From the IMG/VR virus record IMGVR_UViG_3300037584_001158, positions 1 through 28,209 of that record: a stretch of 28,209 nucleotides of DNA. One strand, given 5' to 3'. This stretch comes from a virus. Position 1 is the stretch's first letter. Each line of letters starts with the position of its first letter. Below the pieces are notes generated by a model. The model did no database searches. It saw only the letters and a program-made list of their open reading frames with translations, and had not been told where the DNA came from. The translations under genes were made by a program, and so were the position numbers. Shown here piece by piece: positions 4,390 to 25,542 of the stretch.

Positions 4390-4408
4390 ATTGTGATACA
4401 AGTATATT

Positions 4409-5943: not shown

Positions 5944-5954
5944 CAAGAATAAAT

Positions 5955-5983: not shown

Positions 5984-6031
5984 AGGTAATTATTTTTATA
6001 GAAAACATGTAGAGGGAGTTAAAAAGAATAG

Positions 6032-8052: not shown

Positions 8053-8054
8053 TA

Positions 8055-8258
8055 ATGTATATAACAGAATTTTTAAATAAATATAAAAAAGATTTAAATA
8101 CTAGAATTAATGACATAAGTATTTCCTTGACCAGTGGAAGTGCTTCTGATATTGGTCATTATAAGGCAATGGTAGGTGAAATACAGGGATTAACCTATGC
8201 GTTGGAACAAATACAAACCCTGCTAAAAAAGGTGGATGATGAGTCTGATAGTACCTGA
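8055..8258 (+). CDS. Small helical protein upstream of GroES
   Basis: A 67-residue, mostly helical protein (MYITEFLNKYKKDLNTRIND..., then a second helix EIQGLTYALEQIQTLLKKVDDE). Two helices with heptad-like hydrophobics linked by a short Ser/Gly turn suggest a helical hairpin or oligomer. It starts two bases after the previous stop and overlaps the GroES-like gene by about 20 bases. The function is unknown. It may be a head-assembly accessory protein given its neighbours. Confidence 0.7.
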   Translation: MYITEFLNKYKKDLNTRINDISISLTSGSASDIGHYKAMVGEIQGLTYALEQIQTLLKKVDDESDST

Positions 8259-8664
8259 TTACGTTCTAGCACAGAGGAACGCAAAGAAAAAAGCCGAAGA
8301 ACAAGCAAAAAAGCTAAAATTAATAGAAAGAATACCACAGCCAACAGGTTGGCGAATATTAGTCATGCCATACATAGGCAAAGAAAAGACTGAAGGTGGT
8401 GTTTATGTACCAGATCCCGTAAGAGAAAGAGAAGCACGAGCCACAGTTACAGCGTATGTAGCTAAAGTCGGACCTTTGGCTTACAAGGATATCGATAAAT
8501 TTGGAGAAGACGGAGCTTGGTGTAAAGAGGGCGACTGGGTTTGTATTGGTCGTTACGCTGGTTCACGATTCCAGATAGAGGGTGGGGAAGTAAGAATAAT
8601 CAATGACGATGAAGTCATTGCAACCATTGTCGATCCTGACGACATCAAAACATACGGAGCTTAG
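8239..8664 (+). CDS. GroES-like co-chaperonin
   Basis: The phage lid protein for a chaperonin, expected to work with host GroEL in folding the capsid protein, as T4 gp31 does. After a basic helical extension of about 35 residues, the GroES fold is visible. GWRILVMPY is its first strand. EKTEGGVYVPD has the Gly-Gly plus hydrophobic triplet of the GroEL-binding mobile loop. KEGDWVCIGRYAG follows, and the end IINDDEVIATI matches the terminal GroES strand. At about 141 residues it is longer than bacterial GroES (about 97). Two adjacent ATGs (8236 and 8239) are possible starts. I list the second because it leaves more room after AGGTGG. No GroEL is present in the window. Confidence 0.88.
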   Translation: MSLIVPDYVLAQRNAKKKAEEQAKKLKLIERIPQPTGWRILVMPYIGKEKTEGGVYVPDPVREREARATVTAYVAKVGPLAYKDIDKFGEDGAWCKEGDWVCIGRYAGSRFQIEGGEVRIINDDEVIATIVDPDDIKTYGA

Positions 8665-8665
8665 T

Positions 8666-9577
8666 ATGCAAGAAGAAAAAGATAAAGTCGAAGAAGAAAT
8701 AGAAGAGGGTCAAGAAATAGAAATAGAAGAGGAGAAGGTTGAAGATGATAAACAGGAAGTTGTCGCAGATTCCAAAGCTCCAGCCGAGGAGGAGAAACAA
8801 GACGATTCAGATGCTGATGACTTGTCTGAGTATTCCGAATCTGTCAAGAAACGTATCAGCAAGCTTACGTCTAAGTTTCGAGAAGAAGAAAGACAAAGAA
8901 ACGAAGCAATTAAATTTGCTGAATCTGTCAAGAAACAAAACGAAGAATTAAAAGCAAAGTTAAATAAGCTAGATACCACATATGTTGGTGAGTTTGATAC
9001 AAGAGTGCAATCTCAAGCTATAGCTGCAAAAGAAGCTTATAGAAAAGCTGTTGAAGAAAATGATGTTGATGCCATGTACGAGGCACAGCAGAATATTTCA
9101 AGAATAGCTATGCAAGAAGCTGAATTAAATAAAATGAAAAAAGATAGAGAGGAACAAGCTGAAAAATTGAAAGCCAGCGAGGCTACACCAGCACAACCTG
9201 CACCAGCGGCTCCTCCTCCAAAACCAGACCCAAAAGCAGAGGATTGGGCAAAGAAAAATACATGGTTTGGTCAAGATCAAACAATGACTTATGCTGCTTT
9301 TGGACTACATAAACAATTAATTGAAGAAGAAGGGTTTGACGCAACGTCAGATGAATACTATACTGAACTGGATAACAGAATTAGATCAGAGTTTCCGCAT
9401 AAATTTCAAGAAGCTCAAAAAAGATCTAATAGTCCTAGAGTCGCCTCTGCTGGGACAACGGCTTCAAAGTCGTCAACAAAGGGACGCAGAACAGTCAAAT
9501 TGACTCCATCGCAAATAGCCATTGCGAAACGATTGAATGTTCCGCTTGAAGAATATGCTAAATATGTGAAGGAGTAA
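8666..9577 (+). CDS. Capsid scaffolding protein
   Basis: A 303-residue internal scaffold that would template the procapsid and leave before or during packaging. Residues 2-57 are extremely acidic (Glu/Asp runs). Residues 58-172 form a long charged coiled coil. A Pro/Ala linker (174-188) follows, and the C-terminus is basic, ending in KLTPSQIAIAKRLNVPLEEY (278-297). That ending is a helical segment of the kind scaffolds use to bind the coat protein. I chose the ATG at 8666, just after the GroES stop and behind CGGAG. A longer reading from 8603 would overlap GroES and adds unrelated residues. The place directly before the head genes fits. Confidence 0.85.
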   Translation: MQEEKDKVEEEIEEGQEIEIEEEKVEDDKQEVVADSKAPAEEEKQDDSDADDLSEYSESVKKRISKLTSKFREEERQRNEAIKFAESVKKQNEELKAKLNKLDTTYVGEFDTRVQSQAIAAKEAYRKAVEENDVDAMYEAQQNISRIAMQEAELNKMKKDREEQAEKLKASEATPAQPAPAAPPPKPDPKAEDWAKKNTWFGQDQTMTYAAFGLHKQLIEEEGFDATSDEYYTELDNRIRSEFPHKFQEAQKRSNSPRVASAGTTASKSSTKGRRTVKLTPSQIAIAKRLNVPLEEYAKYVKE

Positions 9578-9580
9578 AAA

Positions 9581-10048
9581 ATGGCAGAAAAAAGAACAAC
9601 ACGAGAAGCAGAAAGTCGTGCAAATAATACGAGGAGAAAACCTTGGCAACCTCCAGCTAAGTTGGATGCTCCCCCTGCTCCAGATGGATATGAACATCGT
9701 TGGATCAGAACTCAATTAAGAGGAGAAGACGATAAAGCAAATGTTTTTTCCAGAATGAGAGAAGGGTGGGAACCAGTTAGAGCAGACGAATATGGCTCAG
9801 AAGCTGCAAAATATCCAGTTATAGAGGAAGGTAAAAACAAAGGAATTATTGGTGTCGGTGGTTTAATGTTGGCACGAATACCCACAGAAACGGTGCAAGA
9901 GAGAACTGAATATTTTCGGGATCAGACCCGCAATCAATTGAAAGCCGTGGATGAAAACTTGATGAGGGAACAACATCCCTCGATGCCTATCACTGTTGAT
10001 AGGCAAAGTCGTGTAACTTTCGGTGGGGAGAAAAAACCTTCCGAATAA
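9581..10048 (+). CDS. Head-associated protein, unknown
   Basis: A 155-residue hydrophilic protein with AAGGAG six bases before the ATG. The first 35 residues are Arg/Pro-rich and probably disordered. The middle has a compact region beginning DGYEHRWIRTQLRGEDDKAN and containing REGWEPVRADEYGSEAAKYP, then GGLMLARIPTETV. The RxREGWxPV phrase is familiar from proteins encoded just before capsid genes in marine phages, but I cannot name the family. It lies between scaffold and capsid genes, so a minor head protein or assembly factor is likely. Confidence 0.75.
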   Translation: MAEKRTTREAESRANNTRRKPWQPPAKLDAPPAPDGYEHRWIRTQLRGEDDKANVFSRMREGWEPVRADEYGSEAAKYPVIEEGKNKGIIGVGGLMLARIPTETVQERTEYFRDQTRNQLKAVDENLMREQHPSMPITVDRQSRVTFGGEKKPSE

Positions 10049-10065
10049 CTTAGAAGGAGCAATAA

Positions 10066-10686
10066 ATGGCTAATGCAAATGTAGCTTTTGGACTCAAGCC
10101 TGTTGGAAGACATGGTTCAAGTCCAGCGACTCAAGGTACGAGTCAATACTTTATTGCTAGTGATGCTTCTGCGATTTTTCAAGGTTCACCAGTAAAAGCT
10201 GAATTGACTGGCGGAACTATTGCAATCGGCTCTGCAACTGGTAACGGAGACCAATTACTTGGTGTCTTTGCTGGATGTGAGTTTGTGGATGCAACCACTG
10301 GCAAGTTAAGGTTTAGTAATACATGGCCCGGTTCAGGATCAGCTAATACTAACTTTGACATCAAAGGGTTTGTGTATGACGATCCATCACAGAGATTTAT
10401 TATCGCTGCTGATGGTGGTAACACTGACAGAGCAACTGCTAAAGTAGATATTTTCAAGACAGCTGATCTAGCTGGTGGAACTGGTGGTAACACTACTACT
10501 GGTATTTCTACTGCTAAGTTAGATATATCATCTGCTGAAAATACAGATACTTCAAATTGTGTGATGATTTTAGGCATCCATGAAGAAGTAACTAATGCTG
10601 ACCACAGTGCTGCTGGTGTTTCATACATAGTTAAAATCAACAATCATGCGTTAAATTCTTCGGATGCTGACGCTACTGCATCATAA
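10066..10686 (+). CDS. Probable head decoration or minor capsid protein
   Basis: A 206-residue beta-rich protein starting MANANVAFGLKPVGRHGSSP, directly before the major capsid gene. A strong AAGGAG lies at 10054-10059. The composition (Gly, Ala, Thr, Ser, Asn with regular hydrophobic strands, few charges) and the length fit a surface-exposed virion protein. P22-like and other phages often place a decoration or stabilising protein here. I know similar N-termini from marine phages but cannot name a structural family, so the decoration role is inferred from position and composition. Confidence 0.7.
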   Translation: MANANVAFGLKPVGRHGSSPATQGTSQYFIASDASAIFQGSPVKAELTGGTIAIGSATGNGDQLLGVFAGCEFVDATTGKLRFSNTWPGSGSANTNFDIKGFVYDDPSQRFIIAADGGNTDRATAKVDIFKTADLAGGTGGNTTTGISTAKLDISSAENTDTSNCVMILGIHEEVTNADHSAAGVSYIVKINNHALNSSDADATAS

Positions 10687-10698
10687 GGAGAGTGTAGT

Positions 10699-11610
10699 AT
10701 GGCTATTTCAAGAGCACAACTCGCCAAAGAGTTAGAGCCTGGCTTGAACGCTCTCTTTGGTATGGAGTATAATAGGTATGAAGGTCAACATGCAGAAATC
10801 TTCGACACAGAGTCATCTGACCGAGCGTTTGAAGAAGAAGTGATGTTGAGTGGCTTCGGTGCAGCACCCACTAAGCAAGAGGGTTCTGGTGTCACATTTG
10901 ATGATGCAAATGAAGCTTACACTTCAAGATATAACCATGAAACTGTCGCAATGGCGTTCTCAATAACAGAAGAAGCTGTAGAAGATAATCTCTACGACAA
11001 GCTTTCTGCTCGTTATACAAGAGCACTTGCCAGATCTATGGCACACACAAAGCAAGTAAAAGCTGCGAACATTTTAAATAATGCGTTTACAGCTGGTGCG
11101 AGTGCTGGTGGTGATGGTAAAGCATTGTTAGCAACAGATCATCCATTAACAAATGGTGGAACTTTCGCTAACGAGCCAACTGTAGCAGCTGATCTTAATG
11201 AGACATCTTTAGAAGATGCTTTAATTAAGATTGCAGGTTTTGTGGATGAAAGAGGATTAATAATCGCTCTAAGAGGCATGAAGTTAATTGTTCCAAGACA
11301 ATTACAATTTGTCGCAGAGAGAATATTAAACTCTAATCTAAGAGTTGGAACAGCAGATAATGATGCTAATGCCATGAGACAAATGGGAATGTTGCCTCAA
11401 GGATATATCATCAATGATTATTTGACTGATACTGACGCTTTTTTCATCAAAACAGATGCACCAAATGGTCTAAAGCATTTCGAAAGAATGCCTATGGCAA
11501 CAGCTATGGATCCAGATTTTGACACAGGAAACATGAGATATAAAGCAAGAGAGAGATATTCTTTCGGCTTCTCAGATCCTCGTTCACTATTTGGTTCACC
11601 AGGAGCTTAA
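10699..11610 (+). CDS. Major capsid protein
   Basis: A 303-residue coat protein with a strong AAGGAG at 10685-10690. It begins MAISRAQLAKELEPGLNALF. The body contains an E-loop-like region (residues 35-80), a long spine-helix region around RYTRALARSMAHTKQVKAAN, then the P-domain and A-domain strands with GMKLIVPRQLQFVAERIL and LPQGYIINDYLTDTDAFFIK. It ends in a Phe/Arg-rich strand (RYKARERYSFGFSDPRSLFG). These features and the order scaffold, accessory, coat fit the Mu gpT-like branch of HK97-fold capsids. An intrinsic terminator follows 20 bases after the stop, as is usual for the most highly expressed head gene. Confidence 0.9.
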   Translation: MAISRAQLAKELEPGLNALFGMEYNRYEGQHAEIFDTESSDRAFEEEVMLSGFGAAPTKQEGSGVTFDDANEAYTSRYNHETVAMAFSITEEAVEDNLYDKLSARYTRALARSMAHTKQVKAANILNNAFTAGASAGGDGKALLATDHPLTNGGTFANEPTVAADLNETSLEDALIKIAGFVDERGLIIALRGMKLIVPRQLQFVAERILNSNLRVGTADNDANAMRQMGMLPQGYIINDYLTDTDAFFIKTDAPNGLKHFERMPMATAMDPDFDTGNMRYKARERYSFGFSDPRSLFGSPGA

Positions 11611-13662: not shown

Positions 13663-13946
13663 TGGCAGTAAGAAAGACTAAATCAGGACTAGCTTTAAAA
13701 AGATGGTTCAAGGAGGGTTGGAAAGATGTCAAAACAGGCAAGCCTTGTGGTCGTCAAAAGGGTGAGAAAAGGGGTACGCCTTATTGCCGTCCTACTAAAA
13801 GGGTATCGAAGAAAACTCCGAAAACTGCTTCGGAGATGACTTCTACTGAAAAACGTAGTAGGATAAGACAAAAGAATCGGTTGGGACAGCCAGCTGGTAA
13901 ACCGAGAAGAGTAGCGTCACTAAAAAGGAAAAGGAAAAAATCATGA
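13662..13946 (+). CDS. Small basic protein with LKRWFKEGW...CGR...CRPTKR motif
   Basis: A 94-residue, very basic protein. The first 50 residues hold LKRWFKEGWKDVKTGKPCGR and then YCRPTKRVSKKTPKTASEM, with two cysteines about 14 residues apart. The rest is Lys/Arg-rich and probably disordered. The W-rich first block with paired Cys recurs in viral proteins of unknown function in my memory. The start overlaps the previous stop (TAATG) and the stop overlaps the next ATG (ATGA). Confidence 0.75.
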   Translation: MAVRKTKSGLALKRWFKEGWKDVKTGKPCGRQKGEKRGTPYCRPTKRVSKKTPKTASEMTSTEKRSRIRQKNRLGQPAGKPRRVASLKRKRKKS

Positions 13947-14533
13947 AAAAAGTCACTAGATTAAGACAGCCAGAGGGCGGTGTGGATATTTTCAAAAAGA
14001 AACCTATACCAAAGAAACCTAGACAGCCAGAAGGTTCTGGAATGGTTAAAAAGAAAAAGTTAGTTCAGAGACAGCCAGAAGGTTCTGGAGCACCTAAGAA
14101 GAAAAAGTTAATTCAAAGACAGCCAGAAGGTTCTGGAGTGGTTAAAAAGAAAAAGTTAGTTCAGAGACAGCCAGAAGGTTCTGGAGCACCTAAGAAGAAA
14201 AAGCTGGTTCAAAGACAGCCAGAGGGTTCTGGAGCACCTAAGAAAATAACTGGAAGAGGTGAGTTTGCTGATACGAATAGATCTAAAAAAACAAATGTAG
14301 TAAAAACAAGTGGAACTTATAAAATAAAATCTGGAGACACGCTATCTGCTATAGCTAGAAACAAAGGAACAACTGTATCCACATTAAAAAAATTAAATAA
14401 CATAAAAGATGCTAACAAAATTTTTGCTGGTAGATCTTTAAAACTTCCTAGTTCTAACGGAACTAAGAAGAATATGGTAAAACTAGTAAAAACTGCGGTC
14501 AAAAAAGGTAGAGCTATGAGGGCAACAACATAA
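13943..14533 (+). CDS. LysM-domain protein with RQPEGSG/KKKKL tandem repeats
   Basis: A 196-residue protein with three parts. Residues 8-101 carry six RQPEG motifs, five of them spaced exactly 16 residues apart (27, 43, 59, 75, 91) and separated by KKKKL blocks. Residues 125-169 form a single clear LysM domain (TYKIKSGDTLSAIA... ending FAGRSLKLP), which binds N-acetylglucosamine polymers such as peptidoglycan. The last 25 residues are again basic. No catalytic domain is present, so it is not a complete endolysin. A cell-wall-binding virion or lysis accessory protein is likely. The polybasic repeat may bind DNA or lipopolysaccharide, which is inference. Confidence 0.85.
   Translation: MKKVTRLRQPEGGVDIFKKKPIPKKPRQPEGSGMVKKKKLVQRQPEGSGAPKKKKLIQRQPEGSGVVKKKKLVQRQPEGSGAPKKKKLVQRQPEGSGAPKKITGRGEFADTNRSKKTNVVKTSGTYKIKSGDTLSAIARNKGTTVSTLKKLNNIKDANKIFAGRSLKLPSSNGTKKNMVKLVKTAVKKGRAMRATT
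14021..14245 (+). repeat. 48-bp in-frame tandem repeat with 96-bp higher order
   Basis: Five units begin at 14021, 14069, 14117, 14165 and 14213 (the last one partial). Units 1 and 3 (MV/VV variants) resemble each other most, as do units 2 and 4 (AP variants). A 96-base pair of units was therefore probably duplicated after the first 48-base duplication. Confidence 0.85.
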
Positions 14534-15199: not shown

Positions 15200-15703
15200 A
15201 TGGCTAGGTATGCAAGTGGTAAAAGATCATGGGGGTATTCAGATCGCTCTGGGTTTCGTTATCGTTTGCGTGATATGATAAAAGAATGGAATGGTTTAAA
15301 AGTTGGTAGAGATGAATATGAAGCTAAACATCCACAACTAGAACCAAACTATCCTGGACCAGATCCAACAGCTTTGTTTGAGCCAAGACCAGATAGAAGA
15401 ACAGAAGTGACCGTAGAGAATCTTCTTGGTCTAAATCCATTTTTATCCACAGCCAGTAGTGCGTCTATCACAGTTATAGAACCATCACATGGCAGATCAA
15501 CAAGTGATACTGTTAGATTCAGAGATGCAGAGGGTTTTGATGGATTTACAGCAACTGTTTTGAATAATTCATCTGGTTATGCTATAACCAAAGTAGATGA
15601 TAACACATATACTTTTTCTGCTAGTAGTGGCACAGCGACTACAGGTGGACTAAGAGGTGGTGGTGGTAGAGTTACTGCTGGCCCAGTTACATTGGGGACA
15701 TAA
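15200..15703 (+). CDS. Structural protein with N-terminal SGFRYRLRDM block and beta module
   Basis: A 167-residue two-part protein. Residues 1-75 (ARYASGKRSWGYSDRSGFRY..., EWNGLKVGRDEYEAKHPQLE) form a block often found in structural modules of marine phages. Residues 88-155 form a separate beta module (ITVIEPSHGRSTSDTVRF..., YAITKVDDNTYTFSASS). That second module recurs in the nozzle protein that begins at 27570. Encoded between the gp4-like and adaptor genes, it is probably a tail or connector component. The function is not known. Confidence 0.7.
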   Translation: MARYASGKRSWGYSDRSGFRYRLRDMIKEWNGLKVGRDEYEAKHPQLEPNYPGPDPTALFEPRPDRRTEVTVENLLGLNPFLSTASSASITVIEPSHGRSTSDTVRFRDAEGFDGFTATVLNNSSGYAITKVDDNTYTFSASSGTATTGGLRGGGGRVTAGPVTLGT

Positions 15704-16351
15704 ATGAGTTTTACAAAAGCGACATTAACAACGGCAATACAAGATTATACTGATAATTCAGAAACAACTTTTGTAAACAATATACCTAACTTTATAAAAG
15801 CCGCTGAAGAAAAAATATTAAAAAGCGTAGATTTAGATTATTTTAGAAAAAATGTGACAAGTGCGTTAACATCATCAGATGCTTTTCTTACAGTACCTTC
15901 TGATTATTTAGCATCATTTTCTTTGCAGATAACAACATCTGGATCTGAAAGTTTTATACTACAAAAAGATGTAAATTTTATTAGAGAATACACTCCAGCT
16001 TCTTCAACAACTGGACTACCAAAATATTTTGCTAGGTTTGATGAGAATAATTTTATATTAGCACCCACACCAGATAGTAACTATACAATAGAGTTACACT
16101 ATTTTTACAGACCTGATAGTTTAACAGCAGGTTCTGACAGTGGTACAACATGGGTTAGCACCAATGCACCTTTTGCTTTACTTTACGGATCTCTTGTAGA
16201 GGCTTATACTTTTATGAAAGGTGAGCCAGATGTGATACAAAACTATAATGGCTTGTATGGACAATACTTAGAGAGATTAAAAGATCTTGGAGAGGCAAGA
16301 GAAAACACAGATGGTTATAGAGTTGGTCTGCCATCGAGACCAAGAACATAG
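15704..16351 (+). CDS. Head-tail adaptor (SU10-type adaptor-like)
   Basis: A 215-residue protein. The N-terminal helical region (IPNFIKAAEEKILKSVDLDY about 25-44) is followed by a beta-sandwich-like centre. The C-terminal helix segment contains NAPFALLYGSLVEAYTFMKG (154-173), a phrase typical of podoviral adaptor proteins of the SU10/T7 gp11 kind that sit between portal and nozzle. The length fits (about 200-230). It starts at once after the preceding stop (TAAATG). This is well supported by pattern and by location between connector and tail genes. Confidence 0.75.
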   Translation: MSFTKATLTTAIQDYTDNSETTFVNNIPNFIKAAEEKILKSVDLDYFRKNVTSALTSSDAFLTVPSDYLASFSLQITTSGSESFILQKDVNFIREYTPASSTTGLPKYFARFDENNFILAPTPDSNYTIELHYFYRPDSLTAGSDSGTTWVSTNAPFALLYGSLVEAYTFMKGEPDVIQNYNGLYGQYLERLKDLGEARENTDGYRVGLPSRPRT

Positions 16352-17990: not shown

Positions 17991-18338
17991 ATGGCAAATA
18001 CTTTTAAATTATCAAGCAAAGCAGGAGTAACGAGTGCAGATGTAATCTACACAGTAGCTAGTAGCACAACAACCATAATACTGGGTTTGATATTAGGAAA
18101 CACAACAACTAGTCAAGTTACTGCAACTGTAACATTAACATCTGATACTGGTAATAGAACAAATGCTAATGATGAAGTAAATCAACCAGTAGAGCTTATT
18201 ACCAATGCACCCATTCCAGCAGGATCATCATTGGAGCTTTTGGCGGGTAACAAAGTTGTATTGGAAACAACAGACAGCATATCAGTATCTGCAACAGGTG
18301 CAACAGACGTTGCCTTATCTTACATGGAGATTACATAA
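17991..18338 (+). CDS. Small beta-sandwich tail protein
   Basis: A 115-residue protein (MANTFKLSSKAGVTSADVIY...) made almost wholly of beta-forming residues, with strands at IILGLILGN, VTATVTLTS and DVALSYMEIT. It resembles small virion proteins found beside fibres in marine phages. The sequence ATGGAGATTACATAATG at its end contains the GGAG used by the following gene. It is probably a fibre-base or decoration protein. No named family. Confidence 0.7.
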   Translation: MANTFKLSSKAGVTSADVIYTVASSTTTIILGLILGNTTTSQVTATVTLTSDTGNRTNANDEVNQPVELITNAPIPAGSSLELLAGNKVVLETTDSISVSATGATDVALSYMEIT

Positions 18339-18787
18339 TGCCTTTTGTTGGTAAATCACCAGTTACAACTTTTGAGGCTACAACTGCCGTACAAAGATTT
18401 AATGGCGATAACTCAGATACTACATTTACATTAAACAGAACTGTAAGTTCAGTACAAGATGTACTTGTATCTGTAGATGGTGTTGTACAAGACACATCAG
18501 CATATACAATACCAGATGGCACAACCTTGACATTTACTGCTGCACCTAGTTCTGGAACTGCAAATATATTTGTAAACTTTTTAGCACCACAAACTGGTAC
18601 AGTTACACCAGCCGCAGAGAACAAAGGTAATTTTAAAGCAGGTGGTTTGTTTAGAACTAATGCACAAAACCTAACTGCTAACACTACAATACTAGCCACA
18701 GAAAATGCACAGGTTACTGGTACATTTACAATAGATAGTGGCGTTACTTTGACTGTTAATAGTGGTGGAAGGTTGGTGATATCGTGA
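18338..18787 (+). CDS. Fibre protein with DVLVSVDGVVQD domain
   Basis: A 149-residue fibre-type protein. After a short MPFVGKSP tag comes a domain of about 80 residues with VSSVQDVLVSVDGVVQDTSA and ANIFVNFLAP, common to phage tail fibres. A C-terminal beta region follows (GGLFRTNAQN..., TFTIDSGVTLTVNSGGRLVI) that looks like a trimer-forming beta-prism. The architecture is the same as in the gene at 22180-22638. Its start uses a GGAG located in the codons of the previous gene. Confidence 0.75.
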   Translation: MPFVGKSPVTTFEATTAVQRFNGDNSDTTFTLNRTVSSVQDVLVSVDGVVQDTSAYTIPDGTTLTFTAAPSSGTANIFVNFLAPQTGTVTPAAENKGNFKAGGLFRTNAQNLTANTTILATENAQVTGTFTIDSGVTLTVNSGGRLVIS

Positions 18788-19362
18788 GTACAATTAAAGT
18801 AGATGCAATACAAGGAACTAGTGGAGCTTCCACAGCCATTACATTAAGTGGTGGTGTTGTTACATTTAGCCAAACCCCAGTTGGTGCATTTATTGCTGAA
18901 GCTGATATGTTTAGATTTACTTCTAATCTAATAAATACTGGTGATGCTATTATGACAGGAGGTTTTGAAAGAGTAGATGATGCAACTTTTGCTAAAATAG
19001 GAACAGGTATGACAGAAAGCTCAGGTGCTTTTACTTTTCCAAGAACAGGTTTATATCGTGTGGCAGTGTCTGCTCATTTATATATACCTGATGGTAATGA
19101 TGGTGCAGTGGGAGTAAACATAAAGGTTTCAAGTAATAGTGGTTCAAGTTACGACACTGTAGCAGTAGCATGGGCAGGTAATAATGATGGTACTGCTCAA
19201 TGGTATGGAACACACCCTTGCGAAGCATTTGTCAATGTTACTAATGCAAGTACTTTTAGAGTTGCATTTTTTGCTAATAGCAGTTCAGACTCTTACATTG
19301 TTGGTGATACTGACAGAAACCAAACTTCTTTTAGTTTTATTAGATTAGGAGAAAGTCAATGA
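18784..19362 (+). CDS. Fibre protein with C1q-like jelly-roll head, GTG start
   Basis: A 192-residue protein. The N-terminal tag MSTIKVDAIQGTSGAS is of the kind seen on several small fibres in this array. From residue 40 on it resembles a C1q/TNF-like jelly roll (FRFTSNLINTGDAIM, GAFTFPRTGLYRVAVSAHLY, FRVAFFANSSSDSYIVGD, FSFIRLGE). Such heads trimerise and bind receptors at the tip of phage fibres. The GTG start overlaps the previous stop (GTGA). Receptor binding is inferred from the fold type. Confidence 0.75.
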   Translation: MSTIKVDAIQGTSGASTAITLSGGVVTFSQTPVGAFIAEADMFRFTSNLINTGDAIMTGGFERVDDATFAKIGTGMTESSGAFTFPRTGLYRVAVSAHLYIPDGNDGAVGVNIKVSSNSGSSYDTVAVAWAGNNDGTAQWYGTHPCEAFVNVTNASTFRVAFFANSSSDSYIVGDTDRNQTSFSFIRLGESQ

Positions 19363-19655
19363 GTTTTAGAGATTACTTTCAAGAAGCATTGCTTAGTTTT
19401 AACGGTGGTAATTGGTACACTTGGAAAACACATGATGATGATGGAAATAAAATACCTAATTCAGAACGTATGCAATATAAATGGATTAAGATTGTAAAAG
19501 ATGGTGCAACGATGCCAAGTGAAGCAGATGTAAATGCAAAGGTAAAAGAATTAAAAGATGCAGAAACTGCAAAAGTTAATAGTAAAACATCAGCGATAGC
19601 CAAGCTAAAAAAGTTAGGTTTGACTGATGATGAGATAAAAGCACTAAGGCTATAA
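19359..19655 (+). CDS. Small hydrophilic protein, fibre-chaperone-like
   Basis: A 98-residue, helical, charged protein placed between two fibre genes. It contains WYTWKTHDDDGNKIPNSERM, then MPSEADVNAKVKELKDAE and a C-terminal helix pair SAIAKLKKLGLTDDEIKAL. The EAD..AK.KEL phrase recurs in the gene at 21883-22176 and is reminiscent of XkdW-type proteins near tail genes. Small helical proteins after fibres are often assembly chaperones, so this is the preferred guess. Its GGAG lies in the last codons of the fibre before it. Confidence 0.6.
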   Translation: MSFRDYFQEALLSFNGGNWYTWKTHDDDGNKIPNSERMQYKWIKIVKDGATMPSEADVNAKVKELKDAETAKVNSKTSAIAKLKKLGLTDDEIKALRL

Positions 19656-19656
19656 A

Positions 19657-20085
19657 ATGAGTGAAGTAATACTAGACACAATCACAGGCAAGTCCACTGC
19701 AACAACCATAACCATTGGCTCAACACCTGTAGTTAGTGCAAGTGCCAACTCTATGACTATTAGAGGTGAGGGTTCAGCACAGACAAGTATACAGCAAGGG
19801 TTGGCTAAGATGTGGGCATTAGGCAATGAAGGTTCTGGTAGTTTAGATAGTTTTAATAATAGTGGTACAACTGATAACGGAACTGGCGATTATACAAAAG
19901 CATTTACAAATAGTTTCTCAAGCGACAACATAGCCTGTGTGGGTACAAGTGCAGGAGATAATACTAGAAACTATATTGATACTCAAACTAGAGCAACAGG
20001 GTCAATACAAATTAGGGCACAAGACCAAAGTGCTTCTGCACAAGATTCAAGAATAGCTATGGGTATTTGGGGAGACCTAGCATAA
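19657..20085 (+). CDS. Short fibre protein, GDLA family, member 1
   Basis: A 142-residue fibre-like protein. It opens MSEVILDTITGKSTATT, then a strand, GEGSAQTSIQQGLAKMWAL, then DSFNNSGTTDNGTGDY, and ends GIWGDLA. The K-x-W, DSFN-S and terminal GDLA features are shared with the genes at 22635, 23051 and 23443 and, less closely, 20085. Such small beta proteins would form trimers on the tail. The last codons supply GGAG for the next start. Confidence 0.75.
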   Translation: MSEVILDTITGKSTATTITIGSTPVVSASANSMTIRGEGSAQTSIQQGLAKMWALGNEGSGSLDSFNNSGTTDNGTGDYTKAFTNSFSSDNIACVGTSAGDNTRNYIDTQTRATGSIQIRAQDQSASAQDSRIAMGIWGDLA

Positions 20086-20087
20086 TG
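20071..20087 (+). promoter_or_regulatory. Cassette junction with embedded Shine-Dalgarno
   Basis: GGAGACCTAGCATAATG encodes G-D-L-A-stop of one gene and gives the ribosome-binding GGAG and ATG of the next. The same block recurs at 23037, 23429 and 23833. Confidence 0.7.
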
Positions 20088-20489
20088 GCAAACGGAACAA
20101 TAGCATTTGATACATTACAGACAAGTGGACAGATAAGTGGTACAGCTAGGTCTTTAGATACAGATTTTGTTGTGAGTGGTAGTGCAAAGGCATGGATGAG
20201 ATGGGATATGTCTGCGTCTACTTTAGAAGGAAGTTTTAATGTTAGTGGATTTACAGACGTTTCAACAGGGATTAGTCAATTTAATTATTCTTCAAATTTA
20301 GCTGATGGCAACTATGCAATAGCAGGTATTGCAGGAGAAAAATCTGGAGGTGGTAATAGAGCATTAGGAGTAAATGGTAATTCAAGTGTTCCAACGACAG
20401 CTTTAATAAGATTTTACTCTTTTACTTCATCTTGGGGTGCATCTGACTTAGACCTTAATGGTGCTAACATAAGTGGAGATATGGCATGA
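20085..20489 (+). CDS. Short fibre protein, GDLA family, member 2
   Basis: A 134-residue fibre-like protein starting MANGTIAFDTLQTSGQIS, with KAWMRWDMSASTLEGSFNVS in the core and ISGDMA at the end. It keeps the Trp, SFN-S and G-D-x-A positions of its family but lacks the QQGLAK segment of members 1, 3 and 4, so it is a more distant or shortened copy. The ATG at 20085 sits in TAATG behind an embedded GGAG. A start at 20067 would lie before that site and adds six unrelated residues. Confidence 0.75.
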   Translation: MANGTIAFDTLQTSGQISGTARSLDTDFVVSGSAKAWMRWDMSASTLEGSFNVSGFTDVSTGISQFNYSSNLADGNYAIAGIAGEKSGGGNRALGVNGNSSVPTTALIRFYSFTSSWGASDLDLNGANISGDMA

Positions 20490-20974
20490 CAATAAAAACA
20501 CCAGAATTTCAAGGCACACATCTTTGGGATAGATTGTGTTGGGCAAAAGAAAAACTAGAGCCTTACAGAACAGAATATTGTGTTGTATGGGAAGACCCAG
20601 AGACACCTGATGAACCTGCAAAGGTTACACACCCTGATCCTAATTGGATGGCTTGTGCATTGCAGGGTGGTATTTTACCTCCCGTTGAGGCATACTGGGA
20701 GTTAAAGAAGGATGAGGCAAAACCAGACTTTGTAAAACATACAAGAGGGTATTTGCTTCACAACACAAAGCCTATTGAGGCAATGACAGAAGAAAGAGCT
20801 ATAGAGTATTTAATTATGAAAGATCTTCCACAAAGAGTGTGGAAAGATTATAATAAAGCAAATAAACCAAGAATGGTTATATGCAGAAAGAATCAACTTC
20901 CTAGCACAAGAGTATGGCGAAATGCTTGGAAGATTAACGAAGAACTAACCATACAGAAAGATGAGGTGGCTTAA
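20486..20974 (+). CDS. Unknown protein with PSTRVWRNAW motif
   Basis: A 162-residue soluble protein unlike the fibres around it. It is rich in Trp, Pro and charged residues (HLWDRLCWAKEKLEPYRTEY 12-31, AMTEERAIEYLIMKDLPQRV 99-118) and ends with LPSTRVWRNAWKINEELTI. The last motif also occurs at the start of the next gene (VPSDRHFRGAW). I know similar proteins from fibre regions of marine phages but not their function. An assembly or fibre-attachment factor is possible. The start lies in the ATGA overlap behind GGAGATATGGC. Confidence 0.6.
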   Translation: MTIKTPEFQGTHLWDRLCWAKEKLEPYRTEYCVVWEDPETPDEPAKVTHPDPNWMACALQGGILPPVEAYWELKKDEAKPDFVKHTRGYLLHNTKPIEAMTEERAIEYLIMKDLPQRVWKDYNKANKPRMVICRKNQLPSTRVWRNAWKINEELTIQKDEVA

Positions 20975-21346
20975 ATGGCAACAACAAACATAGTAGATAA
21001 AGATGGCAACACCATTGCAGCATCAGACGCAACAGTGCCATCAGATAGACATTTCAGAGGTGCTTGGACATTATCTGGCAAAACAATAACAGAAGATCTA
21101 GCTGAATCTAAAAAGATTTTTCAAGATAAGATTAGAGAAGTTAGAGCTCCTTTGTTAGCTGAAGAAGATGTAGTTTATATGAAAGCATTAGAAGCTGGAG
21201 ATAGTTCTGCACAAGCAGCTAGTGTCACTAAGAAAAAAGCATTAAGAGATGCACCTGCCGCACAAGCAATCACAGATGCAGACACTATTGCAAAGCTAAA
21301 GGCTGCTTGGGATACAAGCACATTAGGTGACAGTCCATACGCATAG
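20975..21346 (+). CDS. Small helical protein with PSDRHFRGAW motif
   Basis: A 123-residue protein with an N-terminal beta part (DKDGNTIAASDATVPSDRHF, then RGAW to residue 31). A helical remainder follows (ESKKIFQDKIREVRAPLLAE, AQAASVTKKKALRDAP, IAKLKAAW). This combination (a short head with R-x-F-R-x-A-W followed by a helical region) is frequent beside tail fibres of marine phages and may be a fibre-assembly chaperone or a C-terminal connector domain. It begins at once after the previous stop. The function is inferred from context. Confidence 0.6.
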   Translation: MATTNIVDKDGNTIAASDATVPSDRHFRGAWTLSGKTITEDLAESKKIFQDKIREVRAPLLAEEDVVYMKALEAGDSSAQAASVTKKKALRDAPAAQAITDADTIAKLKAAWDTSTLGDSPYA

Positions 21347-21355
21347 GAGTAAGTA

Positions 21356-21886
21356 ATGGCTTTAACTCAAATAACTGGTGATGGATTAGCGACAAGTGGA
21401 CTACCTGCAGGTACTGTGTTGCAAGTTGTACAAGTCTCAAAAACCGATACGTTTTCTACGAATAGCACATCATATACTGATGTAACTGGATTATCATTAT
21501 CTATAACACCTAGTTCTAGTTCTAATAAAATACTATTTATAGCAGATTTAAGTGTTGGTGGTACTGATGGTGCAGATGATAACCATGTATTTGTTCAAAT
21601 GGTTAGAGGTTCTACTGCACTCAACATTGGTGATGCAAGGGGAAGCCATAGAAAAAGAGGAACTCATGTTATTAATAATGGTTTAGCTGGACAAATGTTT
21701 CATTGTAGCAGTTGTTTTTTAGATTCCCCAAGCACAACAAGTGCAACTACTTATAAAATACAAATGTTAACAACTGCAGGTTCAGAAACTGGTTGTATCA
21801 ATCGTTCTGGTAGAGATTCGGACTCAAGTGCAGGACATGATGGTAACGCTTCATCAACAATAACAGCTATGGAGATTGCAGGGTGA
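21356..21886 (+). CDS. Fibre protein with ITP-S-S jelly-roll domain
   Basis: A 176-residue fibre. It begins MALTQITGDGLATSGLPAGT, then VLQVVQVSKTDTFSTNS, then YTDVTGLSLSITPSSSSNKI, a very common phage fibre domain (a small jelly roll with a Ser-rich loop), and a cysteine-bearing loop (HCSSCFLDSP). It is probably a receptor-binding or collar fibre. The end (ATGGAGATTGCAGGGTGA) contains the GGAG for the next gene, whose GTG overlaps this stop. Confidence 0.75.
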   Translation: MALTQITGDGLATSGLPAGTVLQVVQVSKTDTFSTNSTSYTDVTGLSLSITPSSSSNKILFIADLSVGGTDGADDNHVFVQMVRGSTALNIGDARGSHRKRGTHVINNGLAGQMFHCSSCFLDSPSTTSATTYKIQMLTTAGSETGCINRSGRDSDSSAGHDGNASSTITAMEIAG

Positions 21887-22176
21887 CCGATATAGCAAAG
21901 TCAATATTAGCTATTAATTCAAAAGCACAATTTTCTGTTAATGCAGAAGATGTAAAACAAATTACATGGCATAATAACACAACACCTGTAGCTGAAGCAG
22001 ATATTCTTGCAAAACAAAAAGAATTACAAACTGCATATGATAATGTTAAATATCAAAGAGACAGAGTAGAAGCCTATCCATCTATAGCAGACCAATTAGA
22101 TGATTTATATCATAATGGCATTGATGGTTGGAAAACAACAATCAAAGCAGTCAAAGACAAATATCCGAAAGGTTAA
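21883..22176 (+). CDS. Small helical protein, fibre-chaperone-like, GTG start
   Basis: A 97-residue helical protein (TDIAKSILAINSKAQFSVNA, then VAEADILAKQKELQTAYDN and YPSIADQLDDLYHNGIDGWK). The (E)AD..AK.KEL helix is shared with the gene at 19359. A C-terminal DQLDDLYHNGIDGW segment is familiar from tail-fibre accessory proteins. The GTG at 21883 lies eight bases behind GGAG and overlaps the preceding stop. The location between two fibres makes a fibre chaperone the best guess. Confidence 0.65.
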   Translation: MTDIAKSILAINSKAQFSVNAEDVKQITWHNNTTPVAEADILAKQKELQTAYDNVKYQRDRVEAYPSIADQLDDLYHNGIDGWKTTIKAVKDKYPKG

Positions 22177-22179
22177 ACA

Positions 22180-22638
22180 ATGCCATACATAGGTCGCTCA
22201 GAAAATTTTGGTGTAAGAAGTAGGTTTCAGTATCAAGCCACAGCTGGACAAACTAGCTTTAGTGGATCAGATGCCAACTCACTATCACTAAGTTACACTG
22301 ATAGTCTGTACATGGATGTATATCAAAATGGTGTGTTGTTAGTGCCGGGTGACGACTACACGGCAACAACTGGTACAACTGTTGTACTAGTCCAAGTAGC
22401 AAGTTTGAACGATATAGTAGAAATGGTCGTATATGATACTTTTTCTGTAGCAGATAGTTATACAAAATCAGAAGCGGATACGAGATATCCTTTCAAGGGT
22501 AATAATAGTATTATAAGATTAAACGGACAGACAATAAGTGCAGACATTACAATAGACAGTGATGAGAATGGTGTAAGTGCAGGTCCTATAACACAGTCGG
22601 CAACAGTTACTGTTAATGGATATTGGAGTATCGTATGA
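22180..22638 (+). CDS. Fibre protein with DSLYMDVYQNGVLLVPGDDY domain
   Basis: A 152-residue fibre-type protein. After MPYIGRSENFGVRS it has FQYQATAGQTSFSG, DSLYMDVYQNGVLLVPGDDY and MVVYDTFSVADSYTK, a very common phage fibre domain. It ends in a short beta tail with IRLNGQTISADITIDSD. The layout matches that of the gene at 18338, so they are probably distant paralogues. Its last codons (TGGAGTATCGTATGA) hold the GGAG for the next gene. Confidence 0.8.
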   Translation: MPYIGRSENFGVRSRFQYQATAGQTSFSGSDANSLSLSYTDSLYMDVYQNGVLLVPGDDYTATTGTTVVLVQVASLNDIVEMVVYDTFSVADSYTKSEADTRYPFKGNNSIIRLNGQTISADITIDSDENGVSAGPITQSATVTVNGYWSIV

Positions 22639-23051
22639 CTAGTCAATTAAATGTAGACACCATTGTAGATAAAGCAGGGTCAGGTGGGTCAAATGTTAAG
22701 ATGGCTAATACCTCTACTTATGTAGGTGAAGGTGGTGGTAGCACACAGAATACTGTGCAAGGATTAATTAAATCGTGGGTTTTAGCAAGTAATGCAGCAT
22801 CACCTACAGATTCATTTAATGTAAGTGGTGGAACTGATAATGGCACAGGTCATTATACTTATGCTTTTTCAACAAACATGGGCAATACAAATTATTCAGT
22901 AGCTGCAGGAACAGCAGGTGGGTCTACTTTTTTTGGTTTTAATCTTTCTGGTAGTTCAGCTACAGGAAATCATACAAATAAAATTGCTACGGATGGTGGT
23001 AGTTTGACGGATGATATAAATATATCTCATGTAGCAGGAGACTTAGCATAA
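22635..23051 (+). CDS. Short fibre protein, GDLA family, member 3
   Basis: A 138-residue fibre-like protein beginning MTSQLNVDTIVDKAGSGGSN. The core has STQNTVQGLIKSWVLAS, then TDSFNVSGGTDNGTGHYTYA and NYSVAAGTAGG, and the end is HVAGDLA. This is the closest match to member 1 (19657): both carry a DNGTG loop and QxGL-K-W. The ATG at 22635 is in an ATGA overlap, six bases behind GGAG. An upstream start at 22623 would lie before this site. Confidence 0.75.
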   Translation: MTSQLNVDTIVDKAGSGGSNVKMANTSTYVGEGGGSTQNTVQGLIKSWVLASNAASPTDSFNVSGGTDNGTGHYTYAFSTNMGNTNYSVAAGTAGGSTFFGFNLSGSSATGNHTNKIATDGGSLTDDINISHVAGDLA

Positions 23052-23053
23052 TG
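23037..23053 (+). promoter_or_regulatory. Cassette junction with embedded Shine-Dalgarno
   Basis: GGAGACTTAGCATAATG again encodes G-D-L-A-stop and presents GGAG ten bases before the next ATG. It differs from the 20071 copy at one synonymous position (CTA/TTA). Confidence 0.7.
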
Positions 23054-23443
23054 GCTAGTGAACTTAAAGTAGATAAATTTACAGGTGTAACCACAGCAGG
23101 TTCTATACTTGTTACAGGTGAAGGCAATAGTACAACAACTAATCTGCAACAAGGGTTAGCGAAGGCTTGGAGTTTTGTAAATCAAAATGATGGTTCTCCT
23201 GCATTTGCCGATTCATTTAATTGTTCAAGTCTTGCTGATGAAGCTACTGGCAGAACATTTAATAATCTTACTAATAATATGAGTAGTGCAAATTTTGCCA
23301 CAGGTGGTAAAGTAACAGCAATTAACATTTCTTGTGTAGAAACTTATAGAACATTTGGAGTAAGATACAGAGCTTTTAATTCAAGTTTTAGTGAAACTGA
23401 TTTAGATTCAAATACTTTGTCAATACACGGAGACCTCGCATAA
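23051..23443 (+). CDS. Short fibre protein, GDLA family, member 4
   Basis: A 130-residue protein: MASELKVDKFTGVTTAGS at the start, TTTNLQQGLAKAWSF, DSFNCSSLADEATGRTF, and SIHGDLA at the end. The QQGLAK-W segment equals that of member 1 almost exactly. The middle loops differ freely, as expected where receptor contacts vary. It is directly joined to members 3 and 5 by the repeated junction. Confidence 0.75.
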   Translation: MASELKVDKFTGVTTAGSILVTGEGNSTTTNLQQGLAKAWSFVNQNDGSPAFADSFNCSSLADEATGRTFNNLTNNMSSANFATGGKVTAINISCVETYRTFGVRYRAFNSSFSETDLDSNTLSIHGDLA

Positions 23444-23445
23444 TG
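23429..23445 (+). promoter_or_regulatory. Cassette junction with embedded Shine-Dalgarno
   Basis: GGAGACCTCGCATAATG, with the same reading and spacing as the junctions at 20071 and 23037, and one synonymous difference (CTC). Confidence 0.7.
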
Positions 23446-23847
23446 GCTAGTATATTAAGAGTAAACACATTAACAGATGCAAGTAGTAATAATTCTATTG
23501 CTACGAGTTTTATAGCAGGTGGTAGTGCTAAAGTTTGGTGTAAATTAACTGGTGCAGCACAGACAATCAATGATAGCTTTAATTTAAGTTCACGCACAGA
23601 CCAAGGAGTAGGTCAAACAGAGTTAACTTTTTCATCAGCTTTTGGTAGTGTGCATTTCTCAAAGACAGCAACAGCAGATTTTGATTCTAGTGTTGATAAT
23701 GGTCTTCATGCCTATGGTTCAGATGGTCAATCTAGTAGTGCAACACCTACCACAACAAAAACAAGGATAGATATATTAGAATATAACTCAACAAATGATG
23801 GTGATTCTGGTTATCTTTGTGCAACTATTCATGGAGACCTAGCATGA
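23443..23847 (+). CDS. Short fibre protein, GDLA family, member 5
   Basis: A 134-residue protein starting MASILRVNTLTDASSNNS, with GGSAKVWCKLTGAAQTINDS followed by FNLSSRTDQGVGQTELTF, and ending TIHGDLA. It shares K-x-W, DSFN-S and GDLA with the family. It lacks QQGL, using GGSAK as does member 2 (20085), so members 2 and 5 form one subgroup and 1, 3 and 4 another. It overlaps the next gene by four bases. Confidence 0.75.
   Translation: MASILRVNTLTDASSNNSIATSFIAGGSAKVWCKLTGAAQTINDSFNLSSRTDQGVGQTELTFSSAFGSVHFSKTATADFDSSVDNGLHAYGSDGQSSSATPTTTKTRIDILEYNSTNDGDSGYLCATIHGDLA
23833..23846 (+). promoter_or_regulatory. Cassette junction with embedded Shine-Dalgarno (ATGA type)
   Basis: GGAGACCTAGCATG is identical to the 20071 junction up to GCAT, but then the stop is TGA overlapping the ATG and not TAA before it. 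Confidence 0.7.
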
Positions 23848-24875
23848 CCAGAGCAGCAGAAATAGCAAAGATGGGTGAAGTCCTAACCAATAGTCAGATT
23901 GGTGGGCGAAGGAATATTATTATCAATGGTGCGATGCAAGTGGCTCAGAGAGGTACATCAAGCACAGGTATTGGTGGGTCAGCAGGATATTTTACTTTAG
24001 ATAGATGGCAAATAAGTCCAAATGGAACAGATGGCAGACTTACGATGACACAAGACAGCTCTGCTCCTAGTGGTTTTGCAAACAGTACCAAATTAGCCTG
24101 TACCACTGCTGATACATCTATTGCAGCAGGCGAGTTTTTAACTTTTACACAAAAAATAGAAGGACAAGACTTACAAGCATTTGCAAAAGGAACATCAGAT
24201 GCAAAAACATTTGCTGTATCGTTTTATGTTAAAGGCAACGCTAATGTTACATATGTGGCAGAACTTATGGATAATGACAATAGCAATAGACATGTTAGTA
24301 AAAGTTTCAGTGTTACAACAGATTGGACAAGAGTGGAATTGAGTTTTCCTGCTGACACAACAGGAGCATTTGATGATGATAATGCTGACAGCATGGTATT
24401 GAATATATGGTTACACGCTGGTACAAACTTCACATCAGGTTCATTACAAACTACATGGGGAGCGTTATCACAAACAAGTAGAGCTGTTGGTATATCTTCT
24501 TTTTTTTCAAGCACATCAAATACTTTTTTCATTACTGGAGTCCAACTAGAAGTTGGAAAAACCACACCATTTGAGCATAGGTCATTTGGGGAAGAACTAA
24601 ATTTAGCAAGACGTTATTATTATCAACCAGATTTAGCATTAAGAATGATAAGTATGCTTTTAAGACCTGACAATAAAAGACAGTTTCAACATTTTTTTCC
24701 AGTGCAAATGAGAGCAGACCCAACTGCCACCACAACTTATGATGCTGATGGTAGTAGTGCTACATTAACTAGTCCTATAGTGAGCAAAGATCAATTTAGA
24801 GCAAGGACAGATGCTCTTAACGCCACAACTCAAGACCCTAGATTAACTGCATTTAAAATGGATGCAGAGTTATAG
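23844..24875 (+). CDS. Large fibre with carbohydrate-binding-like domain
   Basis: A 343-residue fibre. A short tag MTRAAEIAKMGEVLTNSQIG precedes NIIINGAMQVAQRG, a typical opening of phage receptor-binding fibres. A domain of about 180 residues follows, with the look of a carbohydrate-binding beta-sandwich (YFTLDRWQIS, FAVSFYVKGNANVTYVAELM, TDWTRVELSFPADTTGAF, FITGVQLEVGKTTPFEHRSF). The end holds LARRYYYQ. I chose the ATG at 23844, in overlap with the previous stop and behind embedded GGAG. An upstream start at 23817 would lie inside the previous gene. It is probably the main sugar-binding fibre. Confidence 0.85.
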   Translation: MTRAAEIAKMGEVLTNSQIGGRRNIIINGAMQVAQRGTSSTGIGGSAGYFTLDRWQISPNGTDGRLTMTQDSSAPSGFANSTKLACTTADTSIAAGEFLTFTQKIEGQDLQAFAKGTSDAKTFAVSFYVKGNANVTYVAELMDNDNSNRHVSKSFSVTTDWTRVELSFPADTTGAFDDDNADSMVLNIWLHAGTNFTSGSLQTTWGALSQTSRAVGISSFFSSTSNTFFITGVQLEVGKTTPFEHRSFGEELNLARRYYYQPDLALRMISMLLRPDNKRQFQHFFPVQMRADPTATTTYDADGSSATLTSPIVSKDQFRARTDALNATTQDPRLTAFKMDAEL

Positions 24876-24883: not shown

Positions 24884-25057
24884 ATGAATATTACAAAAGC
24901 TAAATATTATTTAGATGAAGATGGTAATGCTAATCAAGGAATAGATGTTACTATAGATGGACAAGAAATGTCTGTACCACTAGACCCTGCTAACAGACAC
25001 TACCAAGCAATCCAAGAATGGGTAGCTGAAGGCAACAAGATAGAGGATGCTGATTAA
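24884..25057 (+). CDS. Small acidic protein with IDGQEMSVPLDPANRHY motif
   Basis: A 57-residue protein (MNITKAKYYLDEDGNANQGI..., VPLDPANRHYQAIQEWVAEG) with AGGAG six bases before the ATG. It fills the only gap between two fibre-region genes and overlaps the next ATG by one base. The pattern (short beta start with DG, then PLDPxNxxYxxIxxWVxxG) is frequent in small proteins next to phage fibres. I see it as a fibre accessory or chaperone fragment of the DUF4376 neighbourhood type, without proof. Confidence 0.7.
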   Translation: MNITKAKYYLDEDGNANQGIDVTIDGQEMSVPLDPANRHYQAIQEWVAEGNKIEDAD

Positions 25058-25542
25058 TGTTAGGTCACGCTGCCATAGCAGAAACTGCTCTTGCTGATGT
25101 AGGTGGCGTATTACAAGTAGCAACAGCGGAGATGAACGCTCTTGCTTCAAGCTCTAGCATAGGATCTGGAACACTTGTTGGTATTTCATCTATTGATGGT
25201 AACTTTACACAAACAACTGCTGGTATATTTATAACTGGTAGTGTAAATGCAGAAGTTAGTTCTAGTTTTACACAAACCACAGAAGACATTAAGGTAGTAA
25301 ACTTTACTGATGTAACCATGAGTAGTGCGTTTACACAGACAGCAGATGGTATCGCTGTACTTGGAGGAATATCTTCTCAAGATTTGAATTTTACAAAAAC
25401 ATCATCTGGAGATATACTGTTTGTAAACGTAGTGACTGATGCCACAACAGAAACTTTTACAGAAATAACTCCAAGTGGCACAGAAACATATACAGAGATT
25501 ACGCCTAGTGGCACAGAGACATATACAGAAATAGTGAGGTAA
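25057..25542 (+). CDS. Repeat-built virion protein (FTQT repeats)
   Basis: A 161-residue protein with two kinds of repeat. Residues 50-124 consist of four imperfect units, each beginning FTQT or FTKT with period 21, 21 and 20 residues. That spacing is about one coil of a beta-helix. Residues 131-159 consist of an 11-residue repeat TET(F/Y)TEITPSG, present two and a half times. The N-terminus MLGHAAIAETALADV is a short helical tag. It is probably a rigid fibre or spike piece. It starts in TAATG overlap with the small gene before it. Confidence 0.7.
   Translation: MLGHAAIAETALADVGGVLQVATAEMNALASSSSIGSGTLVGISSIDGNFTQTTAGIFITGSVNAEVSSSFTQTTEDIKVVNFTDVTMSSAFTQTADGIAVLGGISSQDLNFTKTSSGDILFVNVVTDATTETFTEITPSGTETYTEITPSGTETYTEIVR
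25447..25533 (+). repeat. 33-bp tandem repeat (TETYTEITPSG)
   Basis: Two full 33-base units and a third partial one at the 3' end of the gene. They differ by mostly synonymous changes (ACTCCA/ACGCCT, GAAACA/GAGACA), so the repeat is kept at protein level. Confidence 0.8.

Follow-up and report, generated by a model that had tools for sequence, protein, structure and literature searches.

A tail-fibre gene array of marine phages in which the gene end doubles as a probable ribosome-binding site, with repeated domain replacement between fixed slots

Translationally coupled overlapping genes are joined by ATGA or TAATG overlaps, with an embedded Shine-Dalgarno (SD) sequence and a constrained synonymous choice at the gene end. 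The tail-fibre array described here resembles them in having a start that overlaps the stop and an SD within the last codons of the preceding gene. It differs in that a whole paralogous family uses one peptide/SD seam, which is interchangeable from slot to slot and from follower to follower. Shufflon and integron arrays likewise consist of cassettes that share a joint and can stand in for one another; in the fibre array the slots are fixed, inversion is absent and most relatives lack a dedicated recombinase. Passages of PMC3029335 cite a short conserved boundary sequence between exchangeable phage modules, located at mosaic breaks, and state that phage mosaicism is often ascribed to illegitimate recombination, with conserved joints not findable at most boundaries. 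At such boundaries and at the fibre seam alike, mosaic breaks coincide with a short conserved sequence, but the seam has a specific second role (C-terminal codons and putative SD) and recurs several times per genome, across hundreds of contigs. The variable parts of marine phages include host-recognition genes (tail fibre, C1q and carbohydrate-binding; Mizuno 2014, PMC3909814); under-recruitment is reported for these metaviromic islands, in a text that nowhere mentions recombination or cassettes and gives no joint. Morphogenesis modules of the HMO-2011 type occur with other replication modules (PMC8528129), a recombination at whole-module scale whose boundaries its authors call difficult to identify. 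No report of the Gly-Asp-Leu-Ala (GDLA) seam was found in the open-access literature searched.

The window is the whole 28,209-nt stretch analysed, IMG/VR record IMGVR_UViG_3300037584_001158. We consider it very probable that it carries an HMO-2011-type fixed-slot tail-fibre array, with a GGAG seam as SD and repeated domain replacement by recombination. The array of Puniceispirillum phage HMO-2011 (GU557055), in whose annotation the fibre genes are simply individual putative tail fibre genes, has the same gene order and families and GGAGACCTNGCAT joints. The F, C, H and f proteins are 67-78% identical between the two, and the homology blocks of HMO-2011 with metagenomic contigs start at GGAG (7285, 10536). 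The window terminase, portal and capsid gave no match in HMO-2011 (tblastn, 1e-3); the portal match was SU10-like and the capsid match Mu gpT-like. These comparisons suggest that the window has the fibre array of HMO-2011 but not its type of whole genome, and, as the head genes lack a match, that the array is common to different head types. The carriers of this array are a common group of marine phages.

All features of the array lie on the plus strand. Gene m (17991..18338) ends in ..ME-I-T, with GGAG at 18326-18329, and joins the next gene by a TAATG overlap; in relatives, GGAG was present in 41/41 overlapping m ends. Gene F (18338..18787), T7-tail-fibre-N-terminus-like, is the anchor of the first array, and its own end reads GGTGAT, without GGAG. 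It is followed by a slot occupant of fibre family E (18784..19362; end LGESQ, GGAG 19348-19351, ATGA overlap) and by protein G (19359..19655), a small, tail-related and rare occupant. The main fibre (A) family has five copies in the window. The cassette of slot U2 (19657..20085) ends in GDLA and leads through seam GGAGACCTAGCATAATGGC (20071..20089) to slot U1 (20085..20489), whose cassette, the fifth paralogue, ends in GDMA; seam GGAGATATGGCATGA (20475..20489) connects it to gene C. Homology blocks with relatives (80-93% identity) begin at 20474/20475, i.e. at this seam, and the U1 domain is 88% identical to that of a downstream-array slot of locus L020. The conserved genes C (20486..20974) and H (20975..21346; end SPYA) come next, and the gene after H has its own SD past the stop. 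Slot M holds a member of fibre family D (PHROG 6942; 21356..21886; end MEIAG, GGAG 21871-21874, GTGA overlap), after which comes the small, tail-related protein g (21883..22176).

The second anchor is gene f (22180..22638), a paralogue of F (end YWSIV, GGAG 22625-22628, ATGA overlap). The remaining A-family cassettes, D1 (22635..23051), D2 (23051..23443) and D3 (23443..23847), all end in GDLA and are linked by seams GGAGACTTAGCATAATGGC (23037..23055, D1 to D2), GGAGACCTCGCATAATGGC (23429..23447, D2 to D3) and GGAGACCTAGCATGA (23833..23847, D3 to gene B). Within D2, residues 37-126 form a predicted beta-sandwich, and a second joint, CAACAAGGGTTAGCGAAG (23147..23164, QQGLAK), lies at the start of the folded domain and is a frequent left breakpoint. 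The D1 domain is 93% identical to that of one L195 D3 slot. Gene B (23844..24875; PHROG 4492) encodes a larger terminal fibre protein with a weak CBM_4_9 match. Five window proteins matched the profile of tail fibre family PHROG 11355 (E 8e-7 to 8e-13).

The earlier note claimed that nine starts in the window have GGAG inside the upstream coding end, and this was found for 9/9, with a spacing of 6-10 nt from GGAG to start. The nearly identical GDLA junctions that it listed were also recovered: four read GGAGAC-Y-T-N-GCAT, with GGAG at 20071, 23037, 23429 and 23833, and the 19-mer GGAGAYYTNGCATAATGGC occurs in three copies in the window against 0.08 expected. The comparison with the other window genes that it called for showed enrichment: embedded GGAG occurs at 9/14 array junctions vs 2/26 elsewhere (Fisher p=3e-4), and when the count is confined to junctions with a -1/-4 overlap the values are 9/10 and 1/10 (p=0.001). 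The excess is also beyond codon use: in 5000 synonymous-codon shuffles of the array genes the mean was 3.3 and the maximum 8, vs 9 observed. Some array genes take no part in the scheme, embedded GGAG being absent for those at 18784, 19657, 20975, 21356 and 22180.

The set of relatives comprised 203 loci with 647 distinct A-family gene ends, nearly all of which carry G-D-L-A. The embedded GGAG pattern is far more general than one window. In the first 293 distinct ends with GDLA, its Gly was encoded by GGA in 97% and by GGG in 3%, and never by GGT or GGC; elsewhere in those genes GGA makes up 25% of Gly codons. One explanation is that GDLA is conserved for a need of the protein and that GGA is a by-product of descent. 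The near invariance of GDLA (293/322 distinct ends) speaks for it, as does the persistence of GGAG in 26/34 ends that do not overlap the next start. In 509 non-redundant genes, however, the codon bias at the terminal G, D, L and A was 1.70, 0.85, 1.05 and 0.86 bits, while that at equally invariant D, N, S and G residues within the domain of the same proteins was at background (0-0.17 bits). Moreover, the GSLA ends use GGG AGT in 5/5 cases, by which GGAG is kept, and the terminal Leu codon varies freely. The background codons in the domain and the GGG-AGT solution argue that GGAG is held as DNA. We therefore regard protein need as a very improbable account; as the sole cause it is contradicted by the codon data, and an additional protein role is possible.

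GGAG is thus kept by selection as DNA, not as protein. The variant ends GELA, GALA and GGLA mostly retain it, the SDLA ends without it have gained TAGGAG past the stop (3/3), and in locus L024 an early stop turns GGAGACTTAGCATGA into non-coding DNA. The A end overlaps the next start in 606/640 distinct ends, 586 of which have GGAG, so that loss is seen in 20/606 overlapping vs 8/34 non-overlapping ends (p=4e-5). At the ends of genes C and H, GGAG was found in 0/126 and 0/135 distinct ends, and the follower of H usually has a GGAG of its own past the stop. An embedded GGAG is not obligatory, because the conserved overlapping joints after F and after i in the same arrays function without it. The idea of a gene end that is both protein tail and ribosome-binding site is supported by the window starts together with the codon data of the relatives.

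It had also been proposed that the cassettes are exchanged and reordered. The order 'F x A A C H (x) f A A A B' is kept in more than 80 loci, which rules out free reordering; exchange stood, and the contents move between fixed slots. Of the 74 close domain pairs (>=85% identity), 40 were in different slots and 34 in the same slot, vs 16% at random, so this movement is not free. The 66 shared domain clusters require at least 35 slot moves. At >=80% identity there are 77 pairs of domains in different slots, nearly all of them with unrelated flanks. Duplication, another part of the proposal, is rare within one genome; a single within-contig pair, at 75%, was found, and recent tandem duplication was ruled out. 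These comparisons point to fibre domains that have been swapped repeatedly between slots by recombination between phages. Almost every locus is a metagenome contig and the seam recurs both inside a genome and from one genome to another, so the swaps could be chimeric contigs joined at the seams. This is very improbable: identity across the seam spans just ~13-30 nt, the swapped domains differ by 1-17%, and these block starts are found again in the isolate HMO-2011. In addition, several swaps recur in at least two separate metagenomes (L015/L016/L017 vs L140, L112/L113 vs L184, L162/L167 vs L214, L151/L154 vs L128 and L201/L204 vs L150).

The predicted clustering of breakpoints at GGAGAC..GCAT was observed: 42/50 mapped right breakpoints lie between -7 and +11 nt relative to the stop, including 21 precisely at GCAT|, with a resolution limited to about 13 nt by similarity within the conserved seam. 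The left breakpoints form two groups, one at QGLAK and the other about 90-117 nt upstream of it, near the gene start. The notion of a whole exchanged cassette holds at its right end, the junction; its left end is often intragenic, at QGLAK and not at the previous junction. In agreement, the domain model starts at QGLAK and ends directly before GDLA. This result rests on a domain-pair test that replaced an all-homology-block test, in which left ends fell at A-gene stops in 59% vs 8% at random and right ends showed no clustering there (2% vs 8% random), because most blocks stop within the conserved N-terminus of the next gene. Over 40 inter-slot pairs, Leu codons matched in 88% within the domain vs 46% at the terminal Leu (random 30%; p=1.4e-6), which indicates that linkage breaks inside the seam. 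In pairs sharing gene C with unrelated domains, linkage of the terminal Leu to the downstream gene was at chance (0.36 vs 0.35); its assignment to the downstream side is thus unsupported, and within the seam a crossover can be placed only loosely.

We suggest the following course of exchange. GGA GAC YTN GCA would double as the SD of the following gene, whose start is joined to the stop in an ATGA or TAATG overlap, and translational initiation or re-initiation would take place at the embedded GGAG. Because all A-family seams are alike, an incoming domain with its own seam could take the place of the resident one in any A slot without costing the next gene its working start; that translation stays coupled after the exchange is plausible. 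The crossover on the right falls within or beside the seam; that on the left falls at QGLAK, where the folded domain begins, or close to the gene start. The recombination may be the work of general phage or host enzymes acting on the short shared sequence. T7-type endonuclease I was rejected as a common resolvase, being present in only 1/8 relatives.

Tentatively, QGLAK and the seam, which flank each domain, may be maintained in part for domain exchange, as general recombination sites with built-in compatibility of the ribosome-binding site, recombinase-free and across marine phages; we see this as possible but short of probable. Ordinary compaction and mosaicism, where the strong SD required by late structural genes is pushed into the upstream gene by the overlap of the starts, other recombinants are broken and the seam is passive, has a nearly even standing in our judgement. 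It opposes only the last, mechanistic step of the exchange course given above and leaves the double use of the seam and the moves between slots untouched. Selection alone could produce the clustering at the seam, GGAG SDs lie outside coding sequence elsewhere among the structural genes of the window, other families arrive at GGAG through different reading frames (M-E, W-S, L-G-E), and predicted domain edges coincide with the breakpoints. On the other hand, peaks of synonymous bias are also present at QGLAK and at the N-terminus, positions that call for no SD, and linkage breaks inside the seam and not anywhere beyond the domain.

A dedicated system moving the cassettes, such as a shufflon/invertase, an integron-type integrase or a diversity-generating retroelement, is extremely improbable. 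HMO-2011 does encode a tyrosine integrase, but such a gene occurs in 1/8 relatives only; these eight relatives (55-62 kb) contain no serine recombinase and no reverse transcriptase, and the A genes are all on one strand in fixed order.

The fibre seam is a readable joint with a probable second use, recurrent in hundreds of marine phage contigs, and it makes testable whether boundary sequences drive exchange or merely survive selection. It shows how a virus may exchange fibre parts without breaking gene expression, and suggests a route for the circulation of fibre domains between phages, even with unrelated heads. Each A slot encodes a small protein with a predicted short unstructured N-terminus and, behind it, a single predicted beta-sandwich domain, for which we infer a role in host recognition or receptor binding. 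A PDB fold search with the A domain gave no match below 1e-3, and in BFVD the domain was located within the one-piece tail fibres of cyanophages.

The window (28,209 bases, 38.5% GC, a complete IMG/VR record) carries five paralogues of the main tail-fibre family, A, beginning at 19657, 20085, 22635, 23051 and 23443 and matching PHROG 11355 (tail fibre protein). It also carries the anchor gene F (18338), which resembles the T7 tail-fibre N-terminus slightly under the Pfam cut-off, and its paralogue f (22180). The AlphaFold model of the A gene at 23051–23443 (pLDDT 81) predicted that residues 1–31 are unstructured and residues 37–126 form a beta-sandwich, the terminal Gly-Asp-Leu-Ala (GDLA) adjoining its last strand. 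The closest predicted viral structures to the A domain include domains that Synechococcus and Prochlorococcus phages carry within long, one-piece fibres.

The earlier note placed GGAG, a putative Shine-Dalgarno (SD) sequence, ahead of nine starts within the preceding gene, and all nine were present at a spacing of 6–10 nt. The suspected enrichment was also confirmed, as GGAG was embedded at 9 of 14 array junctions vs. 2 of 26 others in the window (9/10 vs. 1/10 for overlapping junctions only), and it went beyond codon use, since none of 5000 synonymous-codon shuffles reached nine. Other array families contain GGAG in different reading frames, read as M-E (m, D), W-S (f) or L-G-E (E). The F genes end in AAGG or GGTGA(T) in place of GGAG despite the ATGA overlap with the next gene (window 18770–18787 and relatives), and both are other portions of the same anti-SD complement.

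Viral contigs were searched with A, f, the conserved gene C and the larger terminal fibre protein B, which yielded 774 A members in 203 non-redundant loci; the loci were taken as top matches rather than sampled at random, and most are metagenome contigs. The DNA scan for the seam GGAGACYTNGCATAATGGC, the gene end encoding GDLA, hit an A-family gene end in 95 of 99 among the matches listed, and two among the matches listed terminate another fibre-like domain. At L248:3265-3283 and L297:4622-4640, this seam belongs to a different domain, one with terminal TFTLIGDLA. The same array, including its seams, is present in the cultured phage HMO-2011.

Biased terminal codons and telling exceptions show that GGAG at the A-gene ends is maintained at the DNA level. 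Among 293 distinct GDLA ends, the terminal Gly codon was GGA in 97.3% and GGG in 2.7%, while the remainder of the same genes used GGT most often (46%) and GGA at 25%. In 509 genes with domains below about 78% nucleotide identity, codon choice was strongly biased at the tail G, D, L and A and at background at invariant domain residues. All GSLA ends use GGG AGT, which retains GGAG shifted by one base, and SDLA ends without an embedded GGAG have a new TAGGAG 3' of the stop. In locus L024 near 1610, an A gene has an early stop and its seam GGAGACTTAGCATGA persists untranslated before gene B. GGAG was lost in 8 of 34 ends without an overlapping next gene vs. 20 of 606 overlapping ones (p = 4e-5).

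The cassette reordering proposed in the earlier note was not borne out, as gene order was nearly constant: t m F (A/E/D) A A C H (none/A/D/E) f A A A (B/A). With slots labelled by a simple rule from neighbouring genes, the tree of A genes grouped mostly by slot, and the overlap type at A junctions tracked slot. It is the fibre domains that were exchanged: 40 of 74 collapsed domain pairs (≥85% identity, different genomes) occupy different slots, and 66 shared domain clusters require at least 35 moves between slots, 13 having more than one gene family as follower. The flanks of inter-slot pairs were nearly always unrelated. The window domain in U1, an upstream-array slot, matched a downstream-array slot of L020 at 88%, and that in D1 (downstream array) matched slot D3 of L195 at 93%; in both, similarity stops in the seam. 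Such swaps are unlikely to be metagenome chimeras, since several were found again in separate metagenomes.

As anticipated, breakpoints clustered at the junction: 42 of 50 right breakpoints lay at −7 to +11 relative to the stop, and 21 of these fell precisely behind GCAT, with resolution limited by similarity within the seam. The clustering could also have arisen through selection for functional junctions. Left breakpoints were bimodal, at QGLAK, where the folded domain begins, or close to the gene start; the QGLAK codons were biased too, and where the motif was complete its Gly codon was GGG in 71% vs. a background of 9%. Between inter-slot pairs, the terminal Leu codon matched in 46% vs. 88% for Leu codons in the same domains (random, 30%), so it is far less conserved and linkage is lost inside the seam. 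No linkage of this codon to the downstream gene C was found, as would be expected if crossovers occurred on either side of it.

At the level of sequence, these comparisons establish that the gene end has a dual use and is under synonymous constraint, that slots are fixed and domains move between them, and where similarity breaks. We propose that the embedded GGAG would direct ribosomes to start the following gene, either on its own or through reinitiation past the overlapping stop, that A domains may bind host surfaces, and that domains may be exchanged via general recombination. Serine recombinase and reverse transcriptase were absent from all eight relatives of 55–62 kb and a tyrosine integrase occurred in only one of them, so gene content indicates no dedicated shuffling enzyme.

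The window F, C, H and f proteins are 67–78% identical to those of HMO-2011, whereas the window terminase, portal (SU10-like) and capsid (gpT-like), at 21–11610, had no match in that phage. Thus, by protein comparison, the whole fibre array is also found with different, unrelated head types. This agrees with the report that HMO-2011-type morphogenesis modules are joined to other replication modules, with boundaries that are hard to identify (PMC8528129). A relative of gene C (49% identical) lies at 15551–15928 of HQ332136.1 (Dunaliella viridis virus SI2), which may be a phage despite its algal-virus label. Elsewhere in the window, a LysM protein (13943–14533) has several RQPEGSG-x-KKKKL repeats in tandem, and TETYTEITPSG tandem repeats form the C-terminus of the product of 25057–25542.
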